Shown here piece by piece: positions 763 through 12,800 of a stretch of DNA of 64,000 nucleotides (within the stretch, counting starts at the first letter, position 1; every line of letters starts with the position of its first letter). Source of the stretch: Streptomyces sp. NBC_00335 (lineage in GTDB: Bacteria > Actinomycetota > Actinomycetes > Streptomycetales > Streptomycetaceae). A model generated the notes under the pieces. That model was not told the DNA's origin, made no database searches, and saw only the letters and a program-made list of their open reading frames with translations. Where the stretch lies: contig NZ_CP108006.1 in NCBI RefSeq assembly GCF_036127095.1, forward strand, positions 7,307,501-7,371,500, written 5' to 3'. The translations under genes and the position numbers were made by a program.

Positions 763-1389
763 GTCGATCGCCTCCCCGAAGGGGTAGGGCTCTTGCTTCC
801 ACGGTAGGCGGCGGGGCTGGTCACCGCCTCGGGAGGATCGCCCGTCGAGGTCCACCGAGGCGGCCGCCGCCGTACGCGCCGCCACGGATTTTTGGTCGAT
901 CGGAGCATTCCTGTATTGGAAATATGCAGTTCAGTGGCCCCGGGAGAAAGAAAGTCGGTCGGCCGGATTCGCGCGTCAAGAGGTTGCGTTCAATGACGCC
1001 TCGGAACTTTCTGATTTTGGAAATTTAGGAGTGAACTGTGAAACCATTGGTTCATGTCATGTTCATGGCGCGACTTGATGTGAGGTCAGGTCGGTGCCGC
1101 CTCTTTGTCAGGCGGAGTGTCGGCGGGGTTGTGAACCCGGTCGGTCGACCGAAAGTTTCGCCTAAAAATCCGAGAAGAGATTCACCGGTGTGTCCACATT
1201 GGGCATAATTCTGCACGCGGTGACGTAGCGTCAGTTGTGGGTGCAAATTCGACCTTAAGGTGATCAACGGTCCATCGATTCGGTGTTGATGGATTCTAAT
1301 GAAATGTTTAGCCTCTGCTGTGTGACGTGCAGAGTCTCGTCGCCTTGGAGGGCCTGGGGAGGCCCTCATCCTTCTTCTGGGGCGGGTAA
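763..1389. other. Divergent intergenic region, AT-richer than surroundings
   Basis: The stretch between the flavoprotein start and the LamG gene holds no credible gene. From about 890 to 1320 the base composition is clearly lower in GC than the flanks, which fits a promoter or leader region or recently acquired DNA. It contains a short inverted repeat TCCATC/GATGGA (1271-1276 and 1288-1293) and a GC hairpin just before the LamG start, listed separately. I could not fix a -10/-35 pair. Confidence 0.5.
1348..1367 (+). promoter_or_regulatory. Leader hairpin upstream of LamG gene (possible attenuator)
   Basis: GAGGGCCT and AGGCCCTC form a perfect 8-bp stem with a 4-nt loop, followed by a pyrimidine-rich ATCCTTCTTCT tract and then the ATG 22 nt downstream. 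The shape is that of an intrinsic terminator placed in a 5' leader, so it could attenuate the LamG-RHS locus. It could equally be a chance GC hairpin. Confidence 0.4.
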
Positions 1390-4300
1390 ATGTCAGTAAG
1401 AGAACGGAGACGGCTTCGCCGTGCTCTGAGTACCGCGATAGGTGTGGCCTTGCTCGTCGGAGCGTCGCCCGCTTATGGGGCTGGTACGCCGCCGGCTGCA
1501 GCGGAAGCGCCGCTTCCTGAGGCGCAGCGGGCATCGAAAGAGGCTGCCAAGAGCGGCCAGCGTGTGGAAGTCGTGGGCGAGCGTTCGGAGTTCACGACCA
1601 CATTTGCGAACCCTGATGGGAAGTCGTTCCGCCTCGTCCAGTCGGTCGTGCCCGTCCGGGCGAAGAGTGCGGATGGTGCCTGGGTAAAGCCTGATGCCAC
1701 GTTGGTGGTTCGGCCGGACGGAACGGTGGGGCCGAAGGCCGCCGTCGTCGGTCTGAGTTTCTCGGGCGGCGGTGCCAAATCAGACCTCGTGAAGATCGAG
1801 CGGGGCGGCCGTACCTTCGGCTTGGGCTGGGGCAAGGCCCTGCCCAAGCCGAAGCTCGAGGGGGCCAGTGCCACCTACGCGGAGGTACTGCCGGGCGTTG
1901 ATCTTCGTATGACGGCCACGGTGGAGGGTTTCCGCGAGGTCCTCGTCGTCAAGACCCCCCAGGCCGCGGCGAGCCCGGCGCTGAAGAAGGTCAAGTTCGC
2001 GCTCAAGGCCAAGGGCCTGGACGTCGCCGGGTCCAAGGAGAACGGACTGACGGCTCGCAACAGCGACGGCCAGACGGTCTTCGAGGCGCCGCCGGCCCGG
2101 ATGTGGGACTCGGCCGGCCCGGAAGCAGCGCCTGCCGGGGCGAAGCCGGGCTCCGTCCTGCTGAACAGCCGCGCCGCGGTGACCGCGGAAGGTACCGGCC
2201 CCGTGGCCGGGTCGGTCAAGGGCGAGGAGTCGCCGTTCGACGGTCCCGGCCTCGGCGATCAGTCGGCGACCATGCCCCTGGCCGTGGACGCCACGAGCCT
2301 CACCGTCGTCCCGGACGCCAAGCTCATGGCGCAGAAGGATCCTGCGGCTTTCCCCCTGTACATCGACCCGTCCGTTAACGCGGACTACAGCGTTCAGCGT
2401 CTTCTGCTGCGCAACGACGGGTACGAGGACTACGCCTGGGAGAACGGCGAGGACAACCTCGGCAAGGGCGTGGGCGAGTGCGGTTCGTGGGCCGGCTACT
2501 ACTGCGGTCCGGGCTACGTACAGCGGCTCTACTTCCAGTTCACGCCGGACAACCTGCGCGGCAAGAGGGTCCTGGACGCGACCTTCACCGTCACGGAGCC
2601 GTGGTCCTTCCAGTGCGACCCGCGCAACGTGTGGCTCGTGCGTACGGCGGGCAGCTTCACCAAGTCGACGACCTGGGGAACCAAGCCGGCCTACGCGGAC
2701 CTGATGGGCGACCGTCTGGTCTCTGCGGGACGGGGATCGTCGTGCGATCCGAACTCTCCGGCTGCGCCGATCGAGTTCAATGACAATCCGGATGAAAAGG
2801 ACGAGAACCTGACGTCCACGGTCGCCGCCTGGGCGACCGGCAACTCTCCGCTGACTCTGGAACTGCGGGCGGAGAACGAGAGCGACACCAGCGCCTGGAA
2901 GCGTTTCCGCAACGACGCCGCGCTCACCGTGGACTACATCAGCAACCCGGCCACTCCGACGGCCCAGACCGTCGACGGAACGCCGTGCGAGACGAGCCTC
3001 GGTGAGGCGACGACCATCGCGGACTCCACGCCCGAGCTGCGCGCCACGACCGAGGTCCAGCCGGGTGGTGAGGCGGAGGCGCGGCTGCGCGTGGCCTTCC
3101 TCATCGAGAAGCAGGACGGGGCGAACTGGGTCAAGGTCAACAGCGGCCCGTTCATCGACAGCCCCAGCAACAGCTACTACGGGGCCAATGCCTCGGTCCG
3201 TGCCGAACCGGAACTGATGCCGACCCTGCAGGACGGCAAGACGTACCGCATGCTCACCTGGACCAGGTCCTTCGCCGCCGACGTGGCGACCGCGGGAAGT
3301 CCCTATGTGACCTGCTACTTCAAGCTGGACTCGTCCGCGCCGAAGCCCCCGAGGATTTCAACCGGCGGCCTCTACGACGAGTGCACCTCGACCAGCTGCA
3401 CGGCGAGCGGCAAGCCGGGACTGCCGGGTAAGTTCATCTTCCGTCCGGCCGTGGGCGAGGACTCCAAGGTCGTCAAGTACAAGTACAAGATCGACGGGGA
3501 CAGCGACTGGGCCGATGCTTCGGTGGCGGCCAGCTCGTCCGTCGAGATCGCCCCGCACCACGCAGGGCTGAACACGGTCTACGTCAAGGGCGTGGACAAC
3601 GTGAACGGCGGGCGCCTGGGAGAGCTGGCGACGTTCCGGTTCGCCGTGAACGAGGATCCTGATCCGGTGGCGCACTGGAACTTCTACGACATGTCCGGTG
3701 ACGATGCCAAGGACACCGCGACCAGGGACGTCTCGCCCGATCCGGCCGATCTGCGCAACGGTGCCACCCGTCCCTCGGACGGTCGCCGCGGCTGGCTCCT
3801 CAGCAGCAATGACGAGGACACGGCTCTGCGGCTCGACGGTGTCGATGACTACGCGGCGACCTCCGGGCCCGTGATCAACACCCAGGAATCCTTCACCATC
3901 GCGGGCTGGGTGCGCCCTGACCGTGTGGACAAGACGTTCTCCATGGCGGGTGTCGCTGGCAAATACATGAGCGCGGTCAACATCACCCACCGCGCGAACG
4001 GAACCTGGTCGGCCGCGCTGCCCACCACGGACGACACCAACTCCAACGGCATCAAGTACGTCGTCAACGCCAAGGCGAAGACCGTTCCCAAGGTGTGGAC
4101 GCACGTCGCCGTCGTGTACGACAAGGCCGCCAGGCGACTGCGGCTCTACGTCAACGGCGACTTCCAGGAAGGCATCGACCTGCCCTCGGACTTCAAGCCC
4201 GTGGCCGCGACAGGTCCCCTGACCATCGGTCGCAACCAGTACCGCGGTGACTGGGTCAACGACTTCCCCGGCCTCATCGACGAGATGACCGTCTGGCAGT

Positions 4301-5055
4301 CCGACCTGAGCGCGGAATCGCTGCGGGCGGACGTGCAGATGCACGACAAGACCACCGGCCGGAACATGGTCGAGCTCTCGGCCCGCTGGAACCCCGACAC
4401 CGTCGCCGGAAGCACCCTGACGGACACCTCCGGCTACGACCGCGACCTCACCCTGTCCTCGGGTGCGACCATCGCAGGCGGCAAGCTGCTCCTCAACGGG
4501 ACCACGGGCGACGGATGGGCAGCAGGACCGATCGTCGACGAAATGGGGTCGTTCACCGCGACCGCCGGAGTCGAACTCGACTCCGAAAAGCTCATCGCCA
4601 AGCCCAACGGGTACATCGCGCAGGTCTTGGGCCAGCGCAACAGCGGCGGGGCGGCATGGGGCCTGTGGTTCAAGAAGACCGCCACCGAAACCACCCACCA
4701 CCCCGACACCGGTGAGCTGGTGACCTCCGTCCTCGGCAACTGGTACTTCGGCCGCCTCAACGCCGATGGCACCGGCACCTGGTCGGTGAGCCCGGCCAGA
4801 GCCGAGCTCGACACTTCCGTGCAGGTCACCGTCGTCCACAACGCCCAGGACAACCGTCTGAAGCTGTACGTCGACGGCAACTACGTCTCCGACCGTGACG
4901 ACTTCTACGCCACCGAGTCGGGCAGCACGACCTTCGCGGTCGGCAAGGGCCTCGTCAACGACGCCTGGGGCAACTACCTCCCCGGCAAGATCAACGACGT
5001 CCGCGTATGGACCGGCGCCATGATCGACGCCGAACAGGTCAAGGACTTCACCTAG
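1390..5055 (+). CDS. Secreted LamG-domain (jellyroll) protein with DNRLRE-like region
   Basis: This 1221-aa exported protein starts with a Sec-type signal: basic MSVRERRRLRR, a hydrophobic AIGVALLVGAS core and an AYGAGT cleavage region near residue 30. Residues about 325-445 look like a DNRLRE-type carbohydrate-binding module, with conserved W/Y and the ST.WGTKP motif. Residues about 560-750 are Ig/Fn-like beta repeats. Two LamG/concanavalin-like jellyrolls follow, one at about 810-973 (LRLDGVDDYAAT, FTIAGWVRPD, LRLYVNGDFQE) and one at about 1010-1221 (ending DVRVWTGAMID). No catalytic motif is evident, so a binding or adhesive surface role is most likely. It lies directly upstream of the RHS protein, a pairing I recall from other actinomycetes. 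It may act as a partner or surface scaffold, but that is inference. Confidence 0.88.
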   Translation: MSVRERRRLRRALSTAIGVALLVGASPAYGAGTPPAAAEAPLPEAQRASKEAAKSGQRVEVVGERSEFTTTFANPDGKSFRLVQSVVPVRAKSADGAWVKPDATLVVRPDGTVGPKAAVVGLSFSGGGAKSDLVKIERGGRTFGLGWGKALPKPKLEGASATYAEVLPGVDLRMTATVEGFREVLVVKTPQAAASPALKKVKFALKAKGLDVAGSKENGLTARNSDGQTVFEAPPARMWDSAGPEAAPAGAKPGSVLLNSRAAVTAEGTGPVAGSVKGEESPFDGPGLGDQSATMPLAVDATSLTVVPDAKLMAQKDPAAFPLYIDPSVNADYSVQRLLLRNDGYEDYAWENGEDNLGKGVGECGSWAGYYCGPGYVQRLYFQFTPDNLRGKRVLDATFTVTEPWSFQCDPRNVWLVRTAGSFTKSTTWGTKPAYADLMGDRLVSAGRGSSCDPNSPAAPIEFNDNPDEKDENLTSTVAAWATGNSPLTLELRAENESDTSAWKRFRNDAALTVDYISNPATPTAQTVDGTPCETSLGEATTIADSTPELRATTEVQPGGEAEARLRVAFLIEKQDGANWVKVNSGPFIDSPSNSYYGANASVRAEPELMPTLQDGKTYRMLTWTRSFAADVATAGSPYVTCYFKLDSSAPKPPRISTGGLYDECTSTSCTASGKPGLPGKFIFRPAVGEDSKVVKYKYKIDGDSDWADASVAASSSVEIAPHHAGLNTVYVKGVDNVNGGRLGELATFRFAVNEDPDPVAHWNFYDMSGDDAKDTATRDVSPDPADLRNGATRPSDGRRGWLLSSNDEDTALRLDGVDDYAATSGPVINTQESFTIAGWVRPDRVDKTFSMAGVAGKYMSAVNITHRANGTWSAALPTTDDTNSNGIKYVVNAKAKTVPKVWTHVAVVYDKAARRLRLYVNGDFQEGIDLPSDFKPVAATGPLTIGRNQYRGDWVNDFPGLIDEMTVWQSDLSAESLRADVQMHDKTTGRNMVELSARWNPDTVAGSTLTDTSGYDRDLTLSSGATIAGGKLLLNGTTGDGWAAGPIVDEMGSFTATAGVELDSEKLIAKPNGYIAQVLGQRNSGGAAWGLWFKKTATETTHHPDTGELVTSVLGNWYFGRLNADGTGTWSVSPARAELDTSVQVTVVHNAQDNRLKLYVDGNYVSDRDDFYATESGSTTFAVGKGLVNDAWGNYLPGKINDVRVWTGAMIDAEQVKDFT

Positions 5056-5058
5056 ACC

Positions 5059-5091
5059 GGCCACGGCTGCCACTTCTTGGCAGCCGTGGCC
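5059..5091. terminator. Perfect hairpin 1 downstream of LamG gene
   Basis: Fourteen-base perfect arms (GGCCACGGCTGCCA and its exact complement) flank a 5-nt CTTCT loop, beginning 3 nt after the LamG TAG stop. This is a strong factor-independent type terminator for a high-GC genome, without a clean U tract. Confidence 0.75.
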
Positions 5092-5097
5092 AGCACT

Positions 5098-5134
5098 GAG
5101 CGGCCGGGGTCTCGTTCTGCGACCCCGGCCGCTC
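5098..5134. terminator. Perfect hairpin 2, tandem to the first
   Basis: GAGCGGCCGGGGTC and its exact 14-base complement enclose a 9-nt loop. It sits only 6 nt after the first hairpin and 77 nt before the RHS start. Two unrelated perfect hairpins in tandem imply tight separation of LamG and RHS transcription, or a processing/attenuation element that sets their ratio. Confidence 0.7.
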
Positions 5135-5211
5135 GGCCCTTGTGCTCCGCGCGCTCATCGCCACTCACTCACACACCTCTACCTTGCGGCTCGTCCGCTC
5201 CAGGAGTTTTT

Positions 5212-8200
5212 GTGTCAAGAAAAAGAAGTCTGTTGGCGAGAACACCGATCATCGGAGTCCTCGCCCTGGCCTTGTCCGTAACCGGCTCGATCACGGCCCC
5301 CCTCGCCAGCGCCGCAGATGCACCCGGCCGACCGTCGAGCCCGCAGCACCGGCCTGCGAAGGTGAACTCGGTGCCGGTCGAGACGATGGCCTCAGCCGAG
5401 CTGATCGCCAAGCTCAAGGCCGAGGACAAGGCCCAAGCCGAACGCGCTAAGGCCAACCCGAAGAACACCTGGCCCAAGGCCACCACCCTCAAGAGCGACT
5501 TGGCCAGTGCCCCGGCCGCCAACTCCCTGGTGGCCGTCGCCCCGCCGGCCAAGACCGCCCGCGCGGGCGCCGCCGCCTCCGGTCAGGCCACGGTGCAGGT
5601 GCTGGACCAGCAGGCGGCCCGCAAGGCGGGCATCACCGGCGTGCTACTCACGGCCACCGCCGCCACACCCGGCACCGCACGGGTCGAGGTGAACTACGAC
5701 TCGTTCGCATCGGCCATCGGCGGCTCTTGGTCGACCCGCCTGGGCCTGGTGACCCTGCCGGGCTGCGCGCTGACCACCCCGGACAAGCCGGAGTGCCGCA
5801 CGACCACACCCGTCGCCTCCAACAACGACATCGCCAGCCATGAACTCTCCGCCAACGTCACCCTGGCCGGCGCCAAGCCGGCCACGACAGGCAGTGTCCT
5901 GCTCCGCGCTCAGGAACTCCCGAGCACGCCCTTGCTGAGTGCCGCTTCGGCTGCACCCACTGTGCTCGCGGTGATGGCCACGAGTGCCGCGTCGACTTCA
6001 GGTGCCGGCGATTACAAGGCCACCCCCCTGGCCAGCTCCTCCACCTGGGAAGCTGGCGGGTCATCGGGATCGTTCACCTGGTCCTATCCGCTCACCGTGC
6101 CGCCCGCAGCAGCGGGTCCTGCGCCCTCGCTGGCCCTGTCGTACGACTCGGGGTTCATCGATGGCCGCACCGCGACCACCAACAACCAGGGGTCCCAGGT
6201 CGGTGAGGGTTTCGACCTGGCCTCGTCCTACATCGAGCGCAAGTACGCCTCGTGCGACGACGACGCCCAGGCGGACAAGCACGACCAGTGCTGGAAGTAC
6301 GACAACGCCTCCCTCGTCCTGAACGGCAAGGCCAGCGAACTGGTCAAGGACCCTTCGGATGCGACGGGCAACACCTGGCGCCTGAAGAACGACGACGCCA
6401 CCAAGGTCATCCGCGGTCGGGGTGCCGTCAGCACCGATGACGGCGACACCACCACCGACCCGAATGACACCGACGGTGAGTTTTGGAAGGTGGTCACCAG
6501 TGACGGAGCCACCTACACCTTCGGCCTGAACAAGCTCCCCGGCGCGCCCGCGGACACCGAAACCAACTCGGTCTGGACCGTTCCCGTCTTCGGCGACGAT
6601 GAAGGCGAGCCCGGCTACAAGAAGAGCAGCAGCTTCTCCGGCCGTTCGGTTCAGCAGGCCTGGCGCTGGAACCTGGACCTGGTCCAGGACCTGCAGGGCA
6701 ACGCCTCCACGTACTGGTACACCAAGGAGGGCAACTACTACGCGAAGAACGGCGACAAGACGACTCTTGGCGCCTACACGCGTGGTGGCTACCTCAAGGA
6801 GATCAAGTACGGGCAGAGGGCGGACGCGCTCTTCACCGGCATCGCCTCCGGCCGCGTCGCATTCACCTACGACGAGCGCTGCGAGTCGGACTGTTCCTCG
6901 CTCACCGAGGACACTGCCGACAACTGGCCCGATGTGCCCTTCGATACCATCTGCGCGAGCACGGCGACAGACTGCAAGTCCACGGGTCCGTCGTTCTTCA
7001 CCCGCAAGCGCCTGACCAACATCACCACGCAGGTCTGGTCCACGGCTGTCTCGCCTGACGCCTTCACCGACGTCGACAGCTACGCCCTCGTCTCCGGATA
7101 CACGGCGCCGGTCAATCTCAACGACCCGAGCGACCGGAGCCTGGTCCTCAAGTCGGTCACCCGCACCGGCAAGAACGGCACCGACCTCAAGCTGGACCCG
7201 GTCGACATCGTCTACGACAACCGGCCCAACCGGGTCGACGTACCGGGCGACGACATCCTGCCGATCAATCGCCCCCGCATCCGCACCATCACCTCGGAGA
7301 CCGGAGCCACGACCACGGTCACCCTCTCCGACCCGCAGTGTGTCAGCGGCACCAAGATGCCCACGGCGGTCGACGACAACGCCGACGACGCACGCCCCTG
7401 CTACCCGGTGAAGTGGAAGGTCAACGGTGGCGATACGCGCCTGGACTGGTTCCACAAGTACCGCGTCACCAACATCACCACCAAGGACGCCGTCACGGCT
7501 GCCACCGTGTCCAACTCGTACGACTACGAGAAGCCCGGCTGGCGCTACAACGACGACCCCATGACGAAGGAGAAGGATCGCACCTGGTCCAGCTGGCGCG
7601 GCTACGGCAGGGTCACCACCTACACGGGCGTCGGCTCCAACCGCTCCAAGACCACCAACGTGTACATGCAGGGCATGTACGGCGACAAGACGGCCGACCC
7701 GAAGGTCACCCGCACCAACAAGGTGCCCGTCATCGACATCGACGGCGCCGGCCCGATCGCGACGTCGGACTCCACCGACTACGACCAGGTGGCAGGCTTC
7801 CTGCGCCAGTCGGTCACCTACAACGGGTCGACCATCATCGCGTCCTCCCTGAACTACCCGGGGTACACGAACACAGCCACGCAGAACGTCTACAAGATGA
7901 CGGATGCGGGGCAGGTTGCGAAGGACAGCGACGGCAAGCCGATCGTCGACAAGACCATCACTGCCTCACAGGTTCGTACGTCGCGGGCGTATCAGTACAC
8001 GTACCTCACCGCCTCCGACACCTTCCGTCGGACCCAGACCGACTACTCGTACGACGACTACGGCATGATCGCGCGTGTCAGCGCCCTGGGCGACCACGCC
8101 AAGAGCGGCGACGAGACCTGCACCAACACCTGGTACGCCCGCAACCCAGCCGCTGGCCTGACCAACCTGGTCTCTCGCACCCGGACCGTGGCCCAGGCCT

Positions 8201-11200
8201 GCGTGGATGCCGACGGCAATGACCTCACCGATGACAAGCTGACCTTGCCCTCCTCGCTGACCACCCGCGGCGATGTCATCTCCGACACCGCGACCGTCTA
8301 CGACGACGCCACGGTCACCGGGTGGAAGGACGGGCGCGTCCCGACCAAGGGACTTGCGACCTGGACCGGCCGGGCCAAGGCCTACCCTGCCGCCAGCGGC
8401 ACCAACCCGCGCACCCCGTCCGAGACGGACGGCTGGCAAAAGCTCTCCAGCGCCACCTACGACATCCTCGGCCGGCCCCTGAGCGCCACCGACGCGGCAG
8501 GCAACACCTCCACCACCGCCTACACCCCGGCGACCGTCGGCCCGCTCACGGCCACCGTGAGCGCCAAGCCCACGCTGGACTCCAACGGGCAGACCCACCG
8601 GACCTACGCCTACTTCGACCCCGCCCGCGGTGCGGTGATCAAGGGCGAGGACGCCAACGCGAAGATCACCACCAGCGCCTACGACGCGCTCGGCCGCGTC
8701 ACCGGCACCTGGCTGAGCAATCGCAGCCAGACTGGCGGTGAGACCCCGAACATCAGGTACGGATACTCCTTCAAGCGCGGATCCTCACCCTGGACCTCGA
8801 TAACCCAGCTCAAGCACGACAACACCACCTACCGGACCCCGGTCTACGCCGTCGCCGACTCCCTGCTGCGTCCGCTGCAGACCCAGACCCTGTCGCCCAA
8901 CGGCGGACGGATCCTCACCGACACCCGCTACGACTCCCGCGGCCTGGCCTACGACACCTATGCCGACGCCTGGGACGACAAGAACACACCGGACGGCGAC
9001 TACGACGCCGTCACCGCCGGAGGGCCCTTCCCGCAGACCAAGACCTCCTTCGACGCCGCAGGCCGCCCGACGACCTCCGAGCTGTGGGTCAACGGCACCA
9101 AGAAGTGGTCCACGGCCACCAGCTACACCGGCGACTCCGTAGCCACCTCTGCACCTGACGGGGGCACGGCCGCTCGTACCATCACCGACACGCTGGGTCG
9201 GACGACGGAAACCCGCACGTACGCGGGCGAGCAGCCGGATGACAGTGCGTACGGCGCCACCCTCGGTACCGCGTACACCAGCGTGAAGTACACGCTCACC
9301 CGAGACGGCAAGCCCGCCGCGGTCACCGGGCCGGACAGCAGTAAGTGGTCATACACCTACGACCTCTACGGCCGTCAGCGCACCGTCACCGATCCGGACA
9401 CCGGGACGACCACCACGCACTACACGTCGCTGGATCAGATCTCCAGCACGGACGACGCACGCGGCACCACGCTCCTGTACTCCTACGACGAGCTCGGCCG
9501 CAAGACCGCCAAGTGGCAGACCTCCCGCACGGACGCCAACAAGCTGGCCGCCTGGACCTACGACACTCTCCTGCGGGGTGCGCCTACTGCCTCCATTCGC
9601 TATGTCGGCGGCACGACGGGGAAGGCCTATACCAAGAAGGTCTCGGAGTACGACTACCTCGGCCGTCCCAGCAAGACCGAGCTGACGCTGCCCGCCGACG
9701 ACGCGCTGGTCACCTCGGGCGCCGTCAATGCGACCACCGCATACGAGACGAACCTCTGGGCAGACGGCACCGTCTCCAGCACCTCCGAGCCCGCGGCCGG
9801 CGGCCTTCCCTCGGAGACCATCAGCACCGACTACAACAGCTACTTCCTGCCGGACGGTCTCTCCGGGACCAGCGGGTACGTCCAGAGCGTCGGCTACTCG
9901 CCTCTCGGCCGGCTCGAGACGATGAAGCTCTCGCGTTCGGGAGCGCTCGGCGTCAAGGACGTAGACATCGCCAACACCTTCGAGGAAGGAACGGGCCGCC
10001 TCAAGGCAACCACCGTCTACGAGCCGACCCACGGCCTCGTCCAGGACAGCACGTACACGCACGACGACGCCGGCAACGTCACGTCGATCTTCGACAAGGC
10101 CACGGTCAGTGGCGCCAGCGCGGCCGACTACCAGTGCTTCACCTACGACGGCCAGCGCCGCGTAACCGAAGCCTGGACCCCGAGCACCGCCGACTGCGCC
10201 AGTGCCGGACGGACCACGGCCAACCTCGGAGGACCCGCCTCCTACTGGAAGTCCTACACCTACAACGCCGGTGGCCAGCGCGCCTCGGAGACCACGCACA
10301 CGAGCTCCAGCACCACCAACCGCACCTACTGCTACGACACCGCCCGCAGGCACGCCCTCGTCTCCAGCACCACCGGGACGGACTGCACGGCGGTCGCGGA
10401 CCAGTACACCTACGACGAGAGCGGGAACTCCACCAAGCGCCTTCGTTCTCCCTCCAGCAGCGACAGCCAAGTGCTGACCTGGAGCGGGGAGAACAAGCTC
10501 AGCAGGCTCGTCGAGGGAACCGACACCACCAGCTACCTGTACGACGCCGACGGCGAGCTCCTCATCCGCCGCAATACCGCAGGCGAAACCGTCCTGTACG
10601 CCGGGTCCACCGAGGTCCACCTCGAAGGCACCAAGAAGTGGGCCAACCGCTACTACACCCTCGGCGGCCAGCGCGTAGCAGTCCGCAGCAACGAGACAGG
10701 CACCTCGAAGGTCTCCTTCCTCTCCAGCGACCACCACGGCACCTCCTCAGTCGCCATCGACAGCGGCGACGAGCAGACGTTCAGCAAGCGCTACATCACC
10801 CCCTTCGGCGCCCCCCGAGGCAACACCGTCGGCACCTGGCCCGACGACAAACGCTTCCTCGGGAAGTCCGCCGACACCAACACCGCACTCACCCACATCG
10901 GCGCCCGCGAATACGACCCCTACACCGGACAATTCATCAGCGTCGACCCGATCCTGAGCCTCGACCAGCACCAGTCCCTCAACGGCTACACCTACGCCAA
11001 CAACAACCCGGTCACCTCCAGCGACCCAACGGGTCTCTGTGTCCCCAATGAACGTGGCGGTTGCGAATCGGGTACTCGCCCAGGCGAAACCCCAGGAGCA
11101 GGCACATCCCCTGGCTGCATTTTCGCCTGCCCCCCCGCCGGCCCCCCCGGAGCTACAGCTGGCGGCACCGGCGGAACCAACGGCGGCGGAACCACCAGAC

Positions 11201-11769
11201 ATACCAATGACTACAGTGACACGGAAGATAGGATCTACGACAAGGAATCACCCGGTAAGAAAGATCGCGAAGTATTCAATCGACTCCAGTACGTCGTAAC
11301 CGGACTTTGGTTCAAGGGATGGTTGAATGGCTGGGCACTGCTGAGTCATTATCTCGATAATACGGGGGACGATTTCATTCTTCATCCGGATCAGATGATC
11401 GAGGAAATTCCGCGATTCAAGCAAAAAGTATCCGAATTCTTCCAGGATGAGGATGGAAGCGATTCCGGATGGAGGCAGACTCGCGCTGACGAGGATGACG
11501 GTCATAGCAGTCTAGACTGGTACTATGCCCTCAATAGTTTCCAGTGGCGCGTTTCCGATATTAAGGTTGACACGTACGGAAAGGTCGCTTCCTACAATTT
11601 GGAAATCAGGAAAAGATACGACTGGGGAGTGCCCAGTGAGAATCGGGATGATCTCGATGGTCCGATGGGGCTTCACTTCACTCAGCCCGAGATTGCTCAC
11701 CTGCACACCGTCGGGCTGGCCCAAGATTTCAACGTGTACGGAAGTTCGCGCATGACGGGGACGCCATAA
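5212..11769 (+). CDS. Secreted RHS/YD-repeat protein with polymorphic toxin-like C-terminus
   Basis: The start is taken as GTG 5212, in phase with AGGAG 5 nt upstream, giving 2185 aa that begin with an export signal (VSRKRSLLARTPIIG, hydrophobic core, ASA/AD cleavage). An ATG further upstream at 5077 would run through the hairpin and spoil the signal. A beta-rich region from about residue 263 (FTWSYPLTVPPAAAGPAPSL) resembles the SpvB/TcdB-like N-part of RHS shells. YD repeats (YDxLGR, YTYDxxG) run from about 1080 to 1830. The RHS core ends with REYDPYTGQFISVDPI and DPTGL at about 1938. The last ~240 residues follow a Cys/Gly/Pro linker and are AT-richer. They contain WYYALNSFQWRV, RKRYDWGVP and LHTVGLAQDFNVYGSS and show no nuclease or deaminase motif I know. 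By analogy with WapA/Rhs, the shell probably delivers this tip as a contact toxin. Confidence 0.9.
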   Translation: MSRKRSLLARTPIIGVLALALSVTGSITAPLASAADAPGRPSSPQHRPAKVNSVPVETMASAELIAKLKAEDKAQAERAKANPKNTWPKATTLKSDLASAPAANSLVAVAPPAKTARAGAAASGQATVQVLDQQAARKAGITGVLLTATAATPGTARVEVNYDSFASAIGGSWSTRLGLVTLPGCALTTPDKPECRTTTPVASNNDIASHELSANVTLAGAKPATTGSVLLRAQELPSTPLLSAASAAPTVLAVMATSAASTSGAGDYKATPLASSSTWEAGGSSGSFTWSYPLTVPPAAAGPAPSLALSYDSGFIDGRTATTNNQGSQVGEGFDLASSYIERKYASCDDDAQADKHDQCWKYDNASLVLNGKASELVKDPSDATGNTWRLKNDDATKVIRGRGAVSTDDGDTTTDPNDTDGEFWKVVTSDGATYTFGLNKLPGAPADTETNSVWTVPVFGDDEGEPGYKKSSSFSGRSVQQAWRWNLDLVQDLQGNASTYWYTKEGNYYAKNGDKTTLGAYTRGGYLKEIKYGQRADALFTGIASGRVAFTYDERCESDCSSLTEDTADNWPDVPFDTICASTATDCKSTGPSFFTRKRLTNITTQVWSTAVSPDAFTDVDSYALVSGYTAPVNLNDPSDRSLVLKSVTRTGKNGTDLKLDPVDIVYDNRPNRVDVPGDDILPINRPRIRTITSETGATTTVTLSDPQCVSGTKMPTAVDDNADDARPCYPVKWKVNGGDTRLDWFHKYRVTNITTKDAVTAATVSNSYDYEKPGWRYNDDPMTKEKDRTWSSWRGYGRVTTYTGVGSNRSKTTNVYMQGMYGDKTADPKVTRTNKVPVIDIDGAGPIATSDSTDYDQVAGFLRQSVTYNGSTIIASSLNYPGYTNTATQNVYKMTDAGQVAKDSDGKPIVDKTITASQVRTSRAYQYTYLTASDTFRRTQTDYSYDDYGMIARVSALGDHAKSGDETCTNTWYARNPAAGLTNLVSRTRTVAQACVDADGNDLTDDKLTLPSSLTTRGDVISDTATVYDDATVTGWKDGRVPTKGLATWTGRAKAYPAASGTNPRTPSETDGWQKLSSATYDILGRPLSATDAAGNTSTTAYTPATVGPLTATVSAKPTLDSNGQTHRTYAYFDPARGAVIKGEDANAKITTSAYDALGRVTGTWLSNRSQTGGETPNIRYGYSFKRGSSPWTSITQLKHDNTTYRTPVYAVADSLLRPLQTQTLSPNGGRILTDTRYDSRGLAYDTYADAWDDKNTPDGDYDAVTAGGPFPQTKTSFDAAGRPTTSELWVNGTKKWSTATSYTGDSVATSAPDGGTAARTITDTLGRTTETRTYAGEQPDDSAYGATLGTAYTSVKYTLTRDGKPAAVTGPDSSKWSYTYDLYGRQRTVTDPDTGTTTTHYTSLDQISSTDDARGTTLLYSYDELGRKTAKWQTSRTDANKLAAWTYDTLLRGAPTASIRYVGGTTGKAYTKKVSEYDYLGRPSKTELTLPADDALVTSGAVNATTAYETNLWADGTVSSTSEPAAGGLPSETISTDYNSYFLPDGLSGTSGYVQSVGYSPLGRLETMKLSRSGALGVKDVDIANTFEEGTGRLKATTVYEPTHGLVQDSTYTHDDAGNVTSIFDKATVSGASAADYQCFTYDGQRRVTEAWTPSTADCASAGRTTANLGGPASYWKSYTYNAGGQRASETTHTSSSTTNRTYCYDTARRHALVSSTTGTDCTAVADQYTYDESGNSTKRLRSPSSSDSQVLTWSGENKLSRLVEGTDTTSYLYDADGELLIRRNTAGETVLYAGSTEVHLEGTKKWANRYYTLGGQRVAVRSNETGTSKVSFLSSDHHGTSSVAIDSGDEQTFSKRYITPFGAPRGNTVGTWPDDKRFLGKSADTNTALTHIGAREYDPYTGQFISVDPILSLDQHQSLNGYTYANNNPVTSSDPTGLCVPNERGGCESGTRPGETPGAGTSPGCIFACPPAGPPGATAGGTGGTNGGGTTRHTNDYSDTEDRIYDKESPGKKDREVFNRLQYVVTGLWFKGWLNGWALLSHYLDNTGDDFILHPDQMIEEIPRFKQKVSEFFQDEDGSDSGWRQTRADEDDGHSSLDWYYALNSFQWRVSDIKVDTYGKVASYNLEIRKRYDWGVPSENRDDLDGPMGLHFTQPEIAHLHTVGLAQDFNVYGSSRMTGTP

Positions 11770-12281
11770 TGGCCTACGCGAAGAGCCTGAAAATTCTCCT
11801 GGCGCTCCTTGCTGGCGCGGCGCTCGCCGGGTGCGGCAGTGCGGTCCAGTCAGCTGCGCCCAGCGGGCGTACTCAGGTGCGGAGTGACCACTACGAGCGA
11901 TTTCAGGGCCGTCCCAGTCCAGAGGACTTGAAACGCTACGGACTCCCGATTCCGGGTGACGTTCAGGCCGTCGAACACTGGAAATACAAGAGTAGTGGTG
12001 CAGGCATGGACCTCTGGGTTCGGTTTGAGGCGACTCAAGCTCAACTGGACCAGTTTCTGAGGAATCTCGGGCAGAGTGAGCTCGATATGCTACCCGGCCA
12101 TTCGCCATTCGACTCCAAGGATGAGGCGAAACTGGGATGGGACATCCAGTCCGGACCTGACGTTTCGGGTTTGGCCATACCAATTCCCGACAGTGACTTG
12201 CATGGCACGTACAGGCAGGTGGCGGTAGATAGACGGGGCGACTCGCTTGTCATGGTTTACGTCTCTTCGGCGACCACCTGA
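11769..12281 (+). CDS. Lipoprotein, candidate immunity protein for the RHS tip
   Basis: The 170-aa product has a type II signal, LALLAGAALAGC, with the lipidated cysteine at residue 22, so it should sit on the outer face of the membrane. Its ATG overlaps the RHS TAA (TAATG), implying translational coupling. Its base composition is as AT-rich as the RHS tip and unlike the rest of the window. The mature part (HWKYKSSGAGMDLWVRFEAT, then GPDVSGLAIPIPDSDLHGTYR) matches no family I recognise. Small genes immediately after RHS or WapA toxins are usually immunity genes. An anchored, outward-facing protein would suit a toxin acting at the envelope. Lipoprotein status is firm; immunity function is inferred from position only. 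Confidence 0.8.
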   Translation: MAYAKSLKILLALLAGAALAGCGSAVQSAAPSGRTQVRSDHYERFQGRPSPEDLKRYGLPIPGDVQAVEHWKYKSSGAGMDLWVRFEATQAQLDQFLRNLGQSELDMLPGHSPFDSKDEAKLGWDIQSGPDVSGLAIPIPDSDLHGTYRQVAVDRRGDSLVMVYVSSATT

Positions 12282-12439: not shown

Positions 12440-12800
12440 GTTCAGGGGGCGGCGGGTAGTGCGCCGAGTCGGCGCCGGCACGTGGTGAAGGCGTCGCTCC
12501 AGGGCCAGGTGGCCTCGAGCCGCAGCCATCGGCGGTGTGCGTGTTTCGCGAGGCGGGCGGGCAGGTCGTAAAGGCGAAACGCATGATGTCGGGCTCGCCC
12601 TGGGCGAGGCCTTCGGCATCGTGGAGGGCCGGCCAGCAGCCTCATCCAGGCATCGAGATCGGCGGCGAGGTTCGAGGCCAGCATCGTGAAGCTTGCCGGT
12701 GACGGCCGCCGAGATCGAGGTCCGCAGGAGCCGAGGCCATCGAGGCGTTGAAGCAAGGCCTCGATAGGGCAGGGCTCGCTCCCGCTGCCCCTTTCACGGC
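12440..12800 (-). mobile_element. IS1380-type transposase relic (3' end, frameshifted)
   Basis: Read on the minus strand, fragments in different frames spell the C-terminus of an IS1380-family transposase. They are NLAADLDAWMRLL, then in another frame DAEGLAQGEPDIMRF, then RLYDLPARLAKHAHRRWLRLEATWPWSDAF and a terminal LGALPA. At least two frameshifts (near 12575 and 12620) and loss of the whole N-terminal and catalytic part make it a dead fragment. It sits directly behind the RHS-lipoprotein pair and marks past mobile-element activity at this junction. The family call is from memory of the conserved tail and is fairly specific. Confidence 0.72.

Follow-up and report, generated by a model that had tools for sequence, protein, structure and literature searches.

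A predicted toxin-immunity cassette with a colicin-M-like tip and an overlapping lipoprotein gene on an RHS carrier of Streptomyces

Colicin-M-type systems and the Streptomyces locus

Colicin M hydrolyses lipid II in the periplasm (PMC8469651), and toxins with its fold have been described as proteobacterial bacteriocins (PMC5821083); sources with PMC numbers are cited here from extracts of their text. We analyzed a stretch of 64,000 nucleotides from Streptomyces sp. NBC_00335 (contig NZ_CP108006.1, positions 7,307,501 to 7,371,500; "the window" denotes this whole stretch), in which an RHS gene ends in a C-terminal tip and overlaps a lipoprotein gene. From sequence and gene arrangement, we predict with high confidence that tip and lipoprotein form a toxin-immunity cassette. 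It is likely that the tip is a colicin-M-like toxin domain, with the product of the overlapping gene as its immunity lipoprotein. The computed basis is a cassette swap, carrier exchange, a recurrent partner predicted to be anchored, a colicin-M-like fold, and a motif alignment, from which we infer export, toxicity, substrate, release, and immunity.

The tip has the fold, the motif region, and the order of strand and motif in common with the colicin M bacteriocins (ColM, PaeM, syringacin M, and the pectocins; PF14859). Their immunity proteins are membrane associated, comparable to the predicted anchored partner here; the tip would likewise have an extracytoplasmic target. The carrier, however, is an RHS or WXG protein here and a TonB-dependent bacteriocin there, and the motif is K-x-Y-D-x6-N-R rather than DXYDX5HR. 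No sequence link of the partner to known ColM immunity proteins was found. The putative type VI secretion system effector-immunity pair DUF3289/DUF943, which includes a colicin M homologue, likewise combines a secretion-system effector of this fold with a neighboring immunity gene, but is Gram-negative and belongs to other sequence families (PMC11148199). In silico prediction has also yielded, besides fusions of colicin M domains with a "broken-hairpin" domain, a colicin-M-fold toxin that has a cystatin-like N-domain and a BamE-like anchored immunity protein (PMC12419801). These are colicin-M-like polymorphic toxins like the window tip, and the cystatin-like one has membrane-anchored immunity; the extract states no RHS or WXG carrier for them, and BamE-like immunity is a helix hairpin followed by three strands (PMC12419801), whereas the model of the window lipoprotein is β-rich. 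TelC of Streptococcus intermedius is a lipid-II-cleaving toxin of a Gram-positive bacterium with an outward-facing anchored immunity protein, TipC; it differs in its Lipocone fold, calcium site, and LXG carrier (PMC5555719, PMC6193138). RHS/WapA polymorphic toxins resemble the window gene in the RHS shell, the signal-like start, the variable tip, and the small gene next to it, and differ in tip type and in the lipoprotein partner.

Searches of an open-access library listed nothing that we recognised as describing colicin-M-like tips on actinobacterial RHS or WXG carriers. The words "Streptomyces" and "actinobact-" are absent from PMC5821083, "Streptomyces" is absent from PMC8469651, and "colicin M" does not occur in the accessible text of Zhang et al. 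2012. An active tip would mean that actinobacteria use the colicin M fold on both RHS and type-VII-like carriers and combine it with anchored partners of more than one kind.

Fold, exchange, and partner of the tip

An AlphaFold2 (AF2) model of the tip was obtained with a pLDDT of 91.2 and a pTM of 0.85. The predicted structure has the colicin M fold: its matches in Foldseek and VIA-align searches were almost exclusively members of the colicin M family, TelC was not among the matches listed, and a viral structure library gave no convincing match. The sequence-only reading had proposed an envelope target instead of a nuclease activity, and the fold search agrees in pointing to an envelope-acting enzyme family. 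A nuclease or other catalogued tip was rejected: the tip had no Pfam match at E ≤ 1, the NCBIfam match covered only the end of the RHS core, and a search of PDB sequences gave no match, or only chance matches with the profile A2 (37 tip sequences). When A2 was compared by hhalign with an alignment of seven colicin M proteins (A6), the score was 30.5 (E 0.0012, probability 19.6%, 101 columns). None of 200 column-shuffled versions of A6 reached that score (best, 26.6), and reversed A6 scored 16.6. Homology of the tip to colicin M is very probable on these data.

The tip is an exchangeable cassette. A second pair of LamG and RHS genes lies in the same genome near 8.62 Mb (locus L113, G000:C1:8613500-8628000) and is 86.7% identical in DNA to window positions 1283-11033 over 9,772 aligned columns (blastn). 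Identity breaks off abruptly at 11033, at the DPTG codon, and beyond this point tip and neighbouring gene differ. The L113 shell is 87% identical in protein over 1,968 columns, and its tip, which is uncharacterised and unrelated to that of the window, is followed by a gene for a DUF7945 protein; the two are possibly a second toxin-immunity pair. Another RHS paralogue, L112 (G000:C1:7267500-7282000), has a shell 53% identical and a tip of the CdiA_C type (PF18451, E 3e-7). Conversely, ten database RHS proteins have tips 48-57% identical to the window tip on shells just 22-36% identical (best single alignments, varying coverage). Variation of the tip on a constant shell, a check proposed in the sequence-only reading, is what L113 presents, and the opposite case, a tip fixed in all homologues, is not what was found, since the tip sits on these diverged shells and on WXG-type carriers.

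The tip is common to diverged RHS shells and WXG100-like (type VII) proteins. At least 55 proteins match the tip profile among 7,996 candidates scored, a capped number. Three of about 370 residues (P0013-P0015) begin with a WXG100-like region (in P0013, PF06013 at E 0.001, below the cut-off); most others are stand-alone proteins of 200-240 residues, and some carriers reach about 500. PF06013 was detected in four of eight scanned carriers (P0013, L010, L014, and L043; E 0.001-0.018, all below the cut-off) and was not listed for L012, L041, L044, and L046, of which L044 is PPE-like (E 0.001). In two of five upstream regions inspected, a small gene weakly matches WXG100 or EspC. Tip profile matches occur in 57 of 295 Streptomyces genomes, orphans counted, and a wider profile run on 345 genomes of the class (126 genera) gave matches, some of them weak, in 15 genomes from 11 genera.

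Relatives of the lipoprotein were obtained from the DNA that follows other tips. The survey comprised 63 loci with a tip match, five that repeat the window having been left out beforehand. We excluded four duplicates (L106, L107, L115, and L116), 14 stand-alone loci (12 with a superoxide dismutase next door), and three weak or fragmentary ones (L104, L105, and L110); of the 42 kept, L099 ends at the tip, so that 41 were assessable. A partner gene had to start between −40 and +130 nt of the tip stop, and its anchor was judged by eye from hydropathy and cysteine. A predicted anchored partner, either a lipoprotein or a protein with a single transmembrane (TM) segment, was encoded by the next gene in 35 of these 41 loci, as a raw count. 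The start was at −4 in 26 of the 35, with a script that chooses the start nearest −4. The strict lipobox pattern is absent from partners L013, L098, and L102, the last of which also shows low hydropathy; at L014 two candidates overlap. Frames are short in L025 and L031, though both were counted as WXG-type.

All five clear RHS carriers (window, L008, L009, L016, and L027) have a predicted lipoprotein partner. L016, from Kitasatospora sp. A2-31 and classed as RHS by its linker, has its tip split over two frames (8072-8586), and the partner gene is still open. A sixth RHS candidate, L103, has a weak tip match (33 bits) and a lipoprotein-like frame. In a BLASTP comparison within a set of ten partners, the window lipoprotein matched those of L008, L016, L009, L012, and L027 (E 5e-26 to 7e-5), matched that of L013 weakly, and did not match the partners of the DRYNW-type tips L042-L044. 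At 13 WXG loci (L019-L026, L028, L031, L091, L010, and L011) the partner is a single-TM protein of 54-104 residues with a two-cysteine tail, e.g., GFSGWQCDAGRDCGS, not evidently related to the window lipoprotein. The tail recalls the two conserved cysteines in colicin M immunity proteins of the PmiB/BmiB type (PMC5821083).

The window lipoprotein has no Pfam family above the cut-off, and a look-up in 5.8 billion proteins returned only itself (655 candidates with exact words in common). Its sole cysteine is residue 22, within the lipobox LAGC. The model gave weak fold matches to PA1624, Tsi3 (of the Tse3-Tsi3 pair), TiME, DcrB, and LpqN, and because they are weak no fold is claimed; Cmi was not among the matches listed.

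Candidate active site and alternative explanations

Five residues are essential in ColM: D226, Y228, D229, H235, and R236 (PMC8469651). The family motif is DXYDX5HR, with degenerate versions on record (PMC5821083). The hhalign comparison sets KRYDWGVPSENR of the tip against DKYDFNASTHR of ColM, so that Y137, D138, and R146 of the tip agree with essential residues. Among the 18 RHS and RYDW-type WXG tips in A2, K135 is present in all and H145 in 12. Four DRYNW-type tips have D135, with N138 instead of D138; three RYNW-type tips (L012, L013, and L027) also have N138. The 12 stand-alone proteins in A2 have W-N for Y-D and lack R146.

The tip probably works like colicin M, and a substrate of the lipid II type is moderately favored. 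The RHS protein would be exported by Sec and then retained at the wall; contact with a neighboring cell would free or expose the tip, which would reach the outer face of the neighbor's membrane and hydrolyse either lipid II or a sibling wall precursor carried on polyprenyl pyrophosphate. Acting there, the tip would not need to pass into the cytoplasm. The producer's own outer membrane face would be equally exposed, so immunity would have to face outward, hence a lipoprotein, which would block the tip on the surface of the producer in the way that Cmi blocks colicin M and TipC blocks TelC. In this scheme the topology of the partner reveals the target of the tip. TipC protects against TelC, a type VII secretion system toxin unrelated to colicin M, and externally added TelC fails to cross the wall (PMC5555719, PMC6193138). 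The earlier proposal of an envelope target is supported and sharpened, to an envelope-acting colicin-M-like tip with an outward-anchored partner. Such a pair of enzyme and immunity protein is open to direct testing, and its host genus is well known as a source of antibiotics, among them several that likewise act on lipid II.

Several observations weigh against a colicin-M-like toxin with its immunity lipoprotein. K135 replaces D226 and N145 replaces H235, so that two of the five essential residues are changed and the window version of the motif reads KXYDX6NR, not DXYDX5HR. Pfam Colicin_M (PF14859) matched neither the window proteins nor any of the 37 tip relatives; it was above the cut-off in none of 198 genomes of the phylum and also in none of 14 control genomes, so this search had no positive control. 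A smaller tip profile, A1, was not significant against colicin M (E 0.19), though the same region was aligned. Six loci (L017, with its tip in a second frame, L100, L101, L108, L109, and L111) have no anchored partner. In part, the wide occurrence of the partner superfamily without a tip counts here as well: a profile of seven tip-linked lipoproteins (A4) has matches in 294 of 295 Streptomyces genomes. The sequence-only reading had named a widespread lipoprotein without an RHS partner as evidence against the pair. That is the situation for the superfamily, but not for close relatives, because only two places exceed 101 bits for A4, both tip-linked and both within the profile. Because the tip has neither the full motif nor a Pfam match, it is filed as colicin-M-like and kept apart from the bacteriocin family.

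In view of the drift in the catalytic motif, the fold and the immunity relationship could be retained with another chemistry or substrate, such as membrane lipids or the lipid carriers of teichoic acids or polysaccharides. The replacement of D226 by K and of H235 by N fits this idea, as do the sister groups with D-x-Y-N and K-x-Y-N, which still have a partner gene. The Y, D, and R, however, do not vary among the 18 A2 rows of RHS and main WXG tips, and degenerate motifs, e.g., DXFKX5R, appear by sequence within the ColM bacteriocins themselves (PMC5821083); we consider another chemistry unlikely.

A lipoprotein serving the RHS gene as a chaperone or secretion accessory, and not as immunity, is very improbable. 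It was not seen within 1.5 kb of the 87%-identical L113 shell, which has another tip, and it is present beside WXG carriers of the same tip (L012 and L013); its only other match in the genome is the core relative described below. Slightly less probable still is an inactive tip that binds wall or membrane and helps the RHS shell to adhere or pack. Motif-less versions do exist (the 12 stand-alone relatives in A2, of the sodF-side type), but partner genes are linked to the tip, RHS and WXG carriers exchange it, and the related shell L112 has a CdiA_C-type tip instead.

Core relatives, carrier gene, and flanking features

The partner superfamily includes a core member without a tip. Most other inspected A4 matches are a TM-anchored protein near a gene for a ROK kinase, metallo-hydrolase, or exonuclease (27 of 28, L050-L077, with at least one such neighbor), and this relative is apparently core in Streptomyces. 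The one in this genome, L007 (G000:C1:1560985), is TM-anchored with a ROK kinase neighbor. At least two A4 matches occur in 33 of 295 genomes, of which 22 were examined; all but G066 are without a tip match. These 22 contain 46 places, 24 at 60 bits or more and 22 partial ones at about 32 bits or less, many covering the signal-peptide region. One partial place, G066:C1:3611109, sits just after a tip match. Of two full-length extras, neither tip nor ROK neighbor was found at L136, and at L134 the last residues of the preceding frame weakly resemble the end of the tip (E 0.006).

Stand-alone colicin-M-like proteins adjoin superoxide dismutase at L003 (G000:C1:5655034), L029, L030, L033-L040, and L093, with no anchored partner gene seen; in those of this kind that were aligned, the catalytic motif is lost. 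A contig from IMG/VR (L086) has two colicin-M-type genes in tandem (934-1737 and 1845-2657). It is conceivable, if doubtful, that Streptomyces have a genus-wide form of the partner and a widespread form of the tip: the motif-less sodF-side proteins and ROK-side TM-anchored relatives would be domesticated descendants, serving as a permanent outward-facing defense against toxins of the colicin M type or as a physiological regulator of lipid II, and would be the source of the immunity genes of the mobile cassettes.

Features of the locus are collected in Table 1. As the sequence-only reading had described, the RHS core closes with DPTGL (first residue, 1938), an AT-rich tip follows, and the lipoprotein gene overlaps by one base, the RHS stop TAA and the lipoprotein ATG forming TAATG. 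The RHS frame starts with GTG, and its N-terminus, VSRKRSLLARTPIIGVLALALSVTGSITAPLASAADAP, is a Sec-type signal as read by eye, with no signal-peptide program. Pfam and NCBIfam scans place the SpvB domain at residues 284-538 and the Rhs-associated core, before the tip, at 1863-1942 (TIGR03696, 63.7 bits; cut-off, 32.5). GC content is 0.669 in shell and linker, 0.509 in the tip, and 0.595 in the lipoprotein gene; at third codon positions it falls from 0.90 in the shell to 0.59 in the tip.

Table 1. Features of the RHS locus (positions in the window)
Feature	Position	Strand	Basis
Companion gene, 1,221 residues, Laminin_G_3 domain	1390..5055	+	Pfam PF13385, E 5e-33
RHS carrier gene, 2,185 residues: signal-like start, SpvB domain, RHS repeats, Rhs-associated core	5212..11769	+	Open reading frame, PF03534, TIGR03696
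Linker after DPTG, Cys/Gly/Pro-rich; first stretch without homology to paralogue L113	11034..11208	+	blastn
Colicin-M-like tip, 186 residues (RHS residues 2000-2185)	11209..11766	+	AF2 model, Foldseek, VIA-align, hhalign
Candidate active-site motif K-R-Y-D-W-G-V-P-S-E-N-R, tip residues 135-146	11611..11646	+	hhalign to ColM, conservation by group
Predicted immunity lipoprotein, 170 residues	11769..12281	+	Lipobox LAGC; homologous lipoproteins downstream of other tips
Lipobox cysteine codon, Cys22	11832..11834	+	Lipobox LAGC
Decayed transposase C-terminus, just 3' of the cassette	12442..12756	-	PF13701 DDE_Tnp_1_4, E 5e-4, below cut-off, profile positions 358-433 of 435

The LamG companion protein, which also has a signal-like start, is encoded ahead of the RHS gene. 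Its relatives lie upstream of RHS genes at two further loci of this genome, with 79% amino acid identity at L113 and 42% at L112 (tblastn); duplicated along with the RHS gene, it may function together with the shell. On the other side of the cassette, the decayed DDE transposase end is possibly a trace of its mobility.
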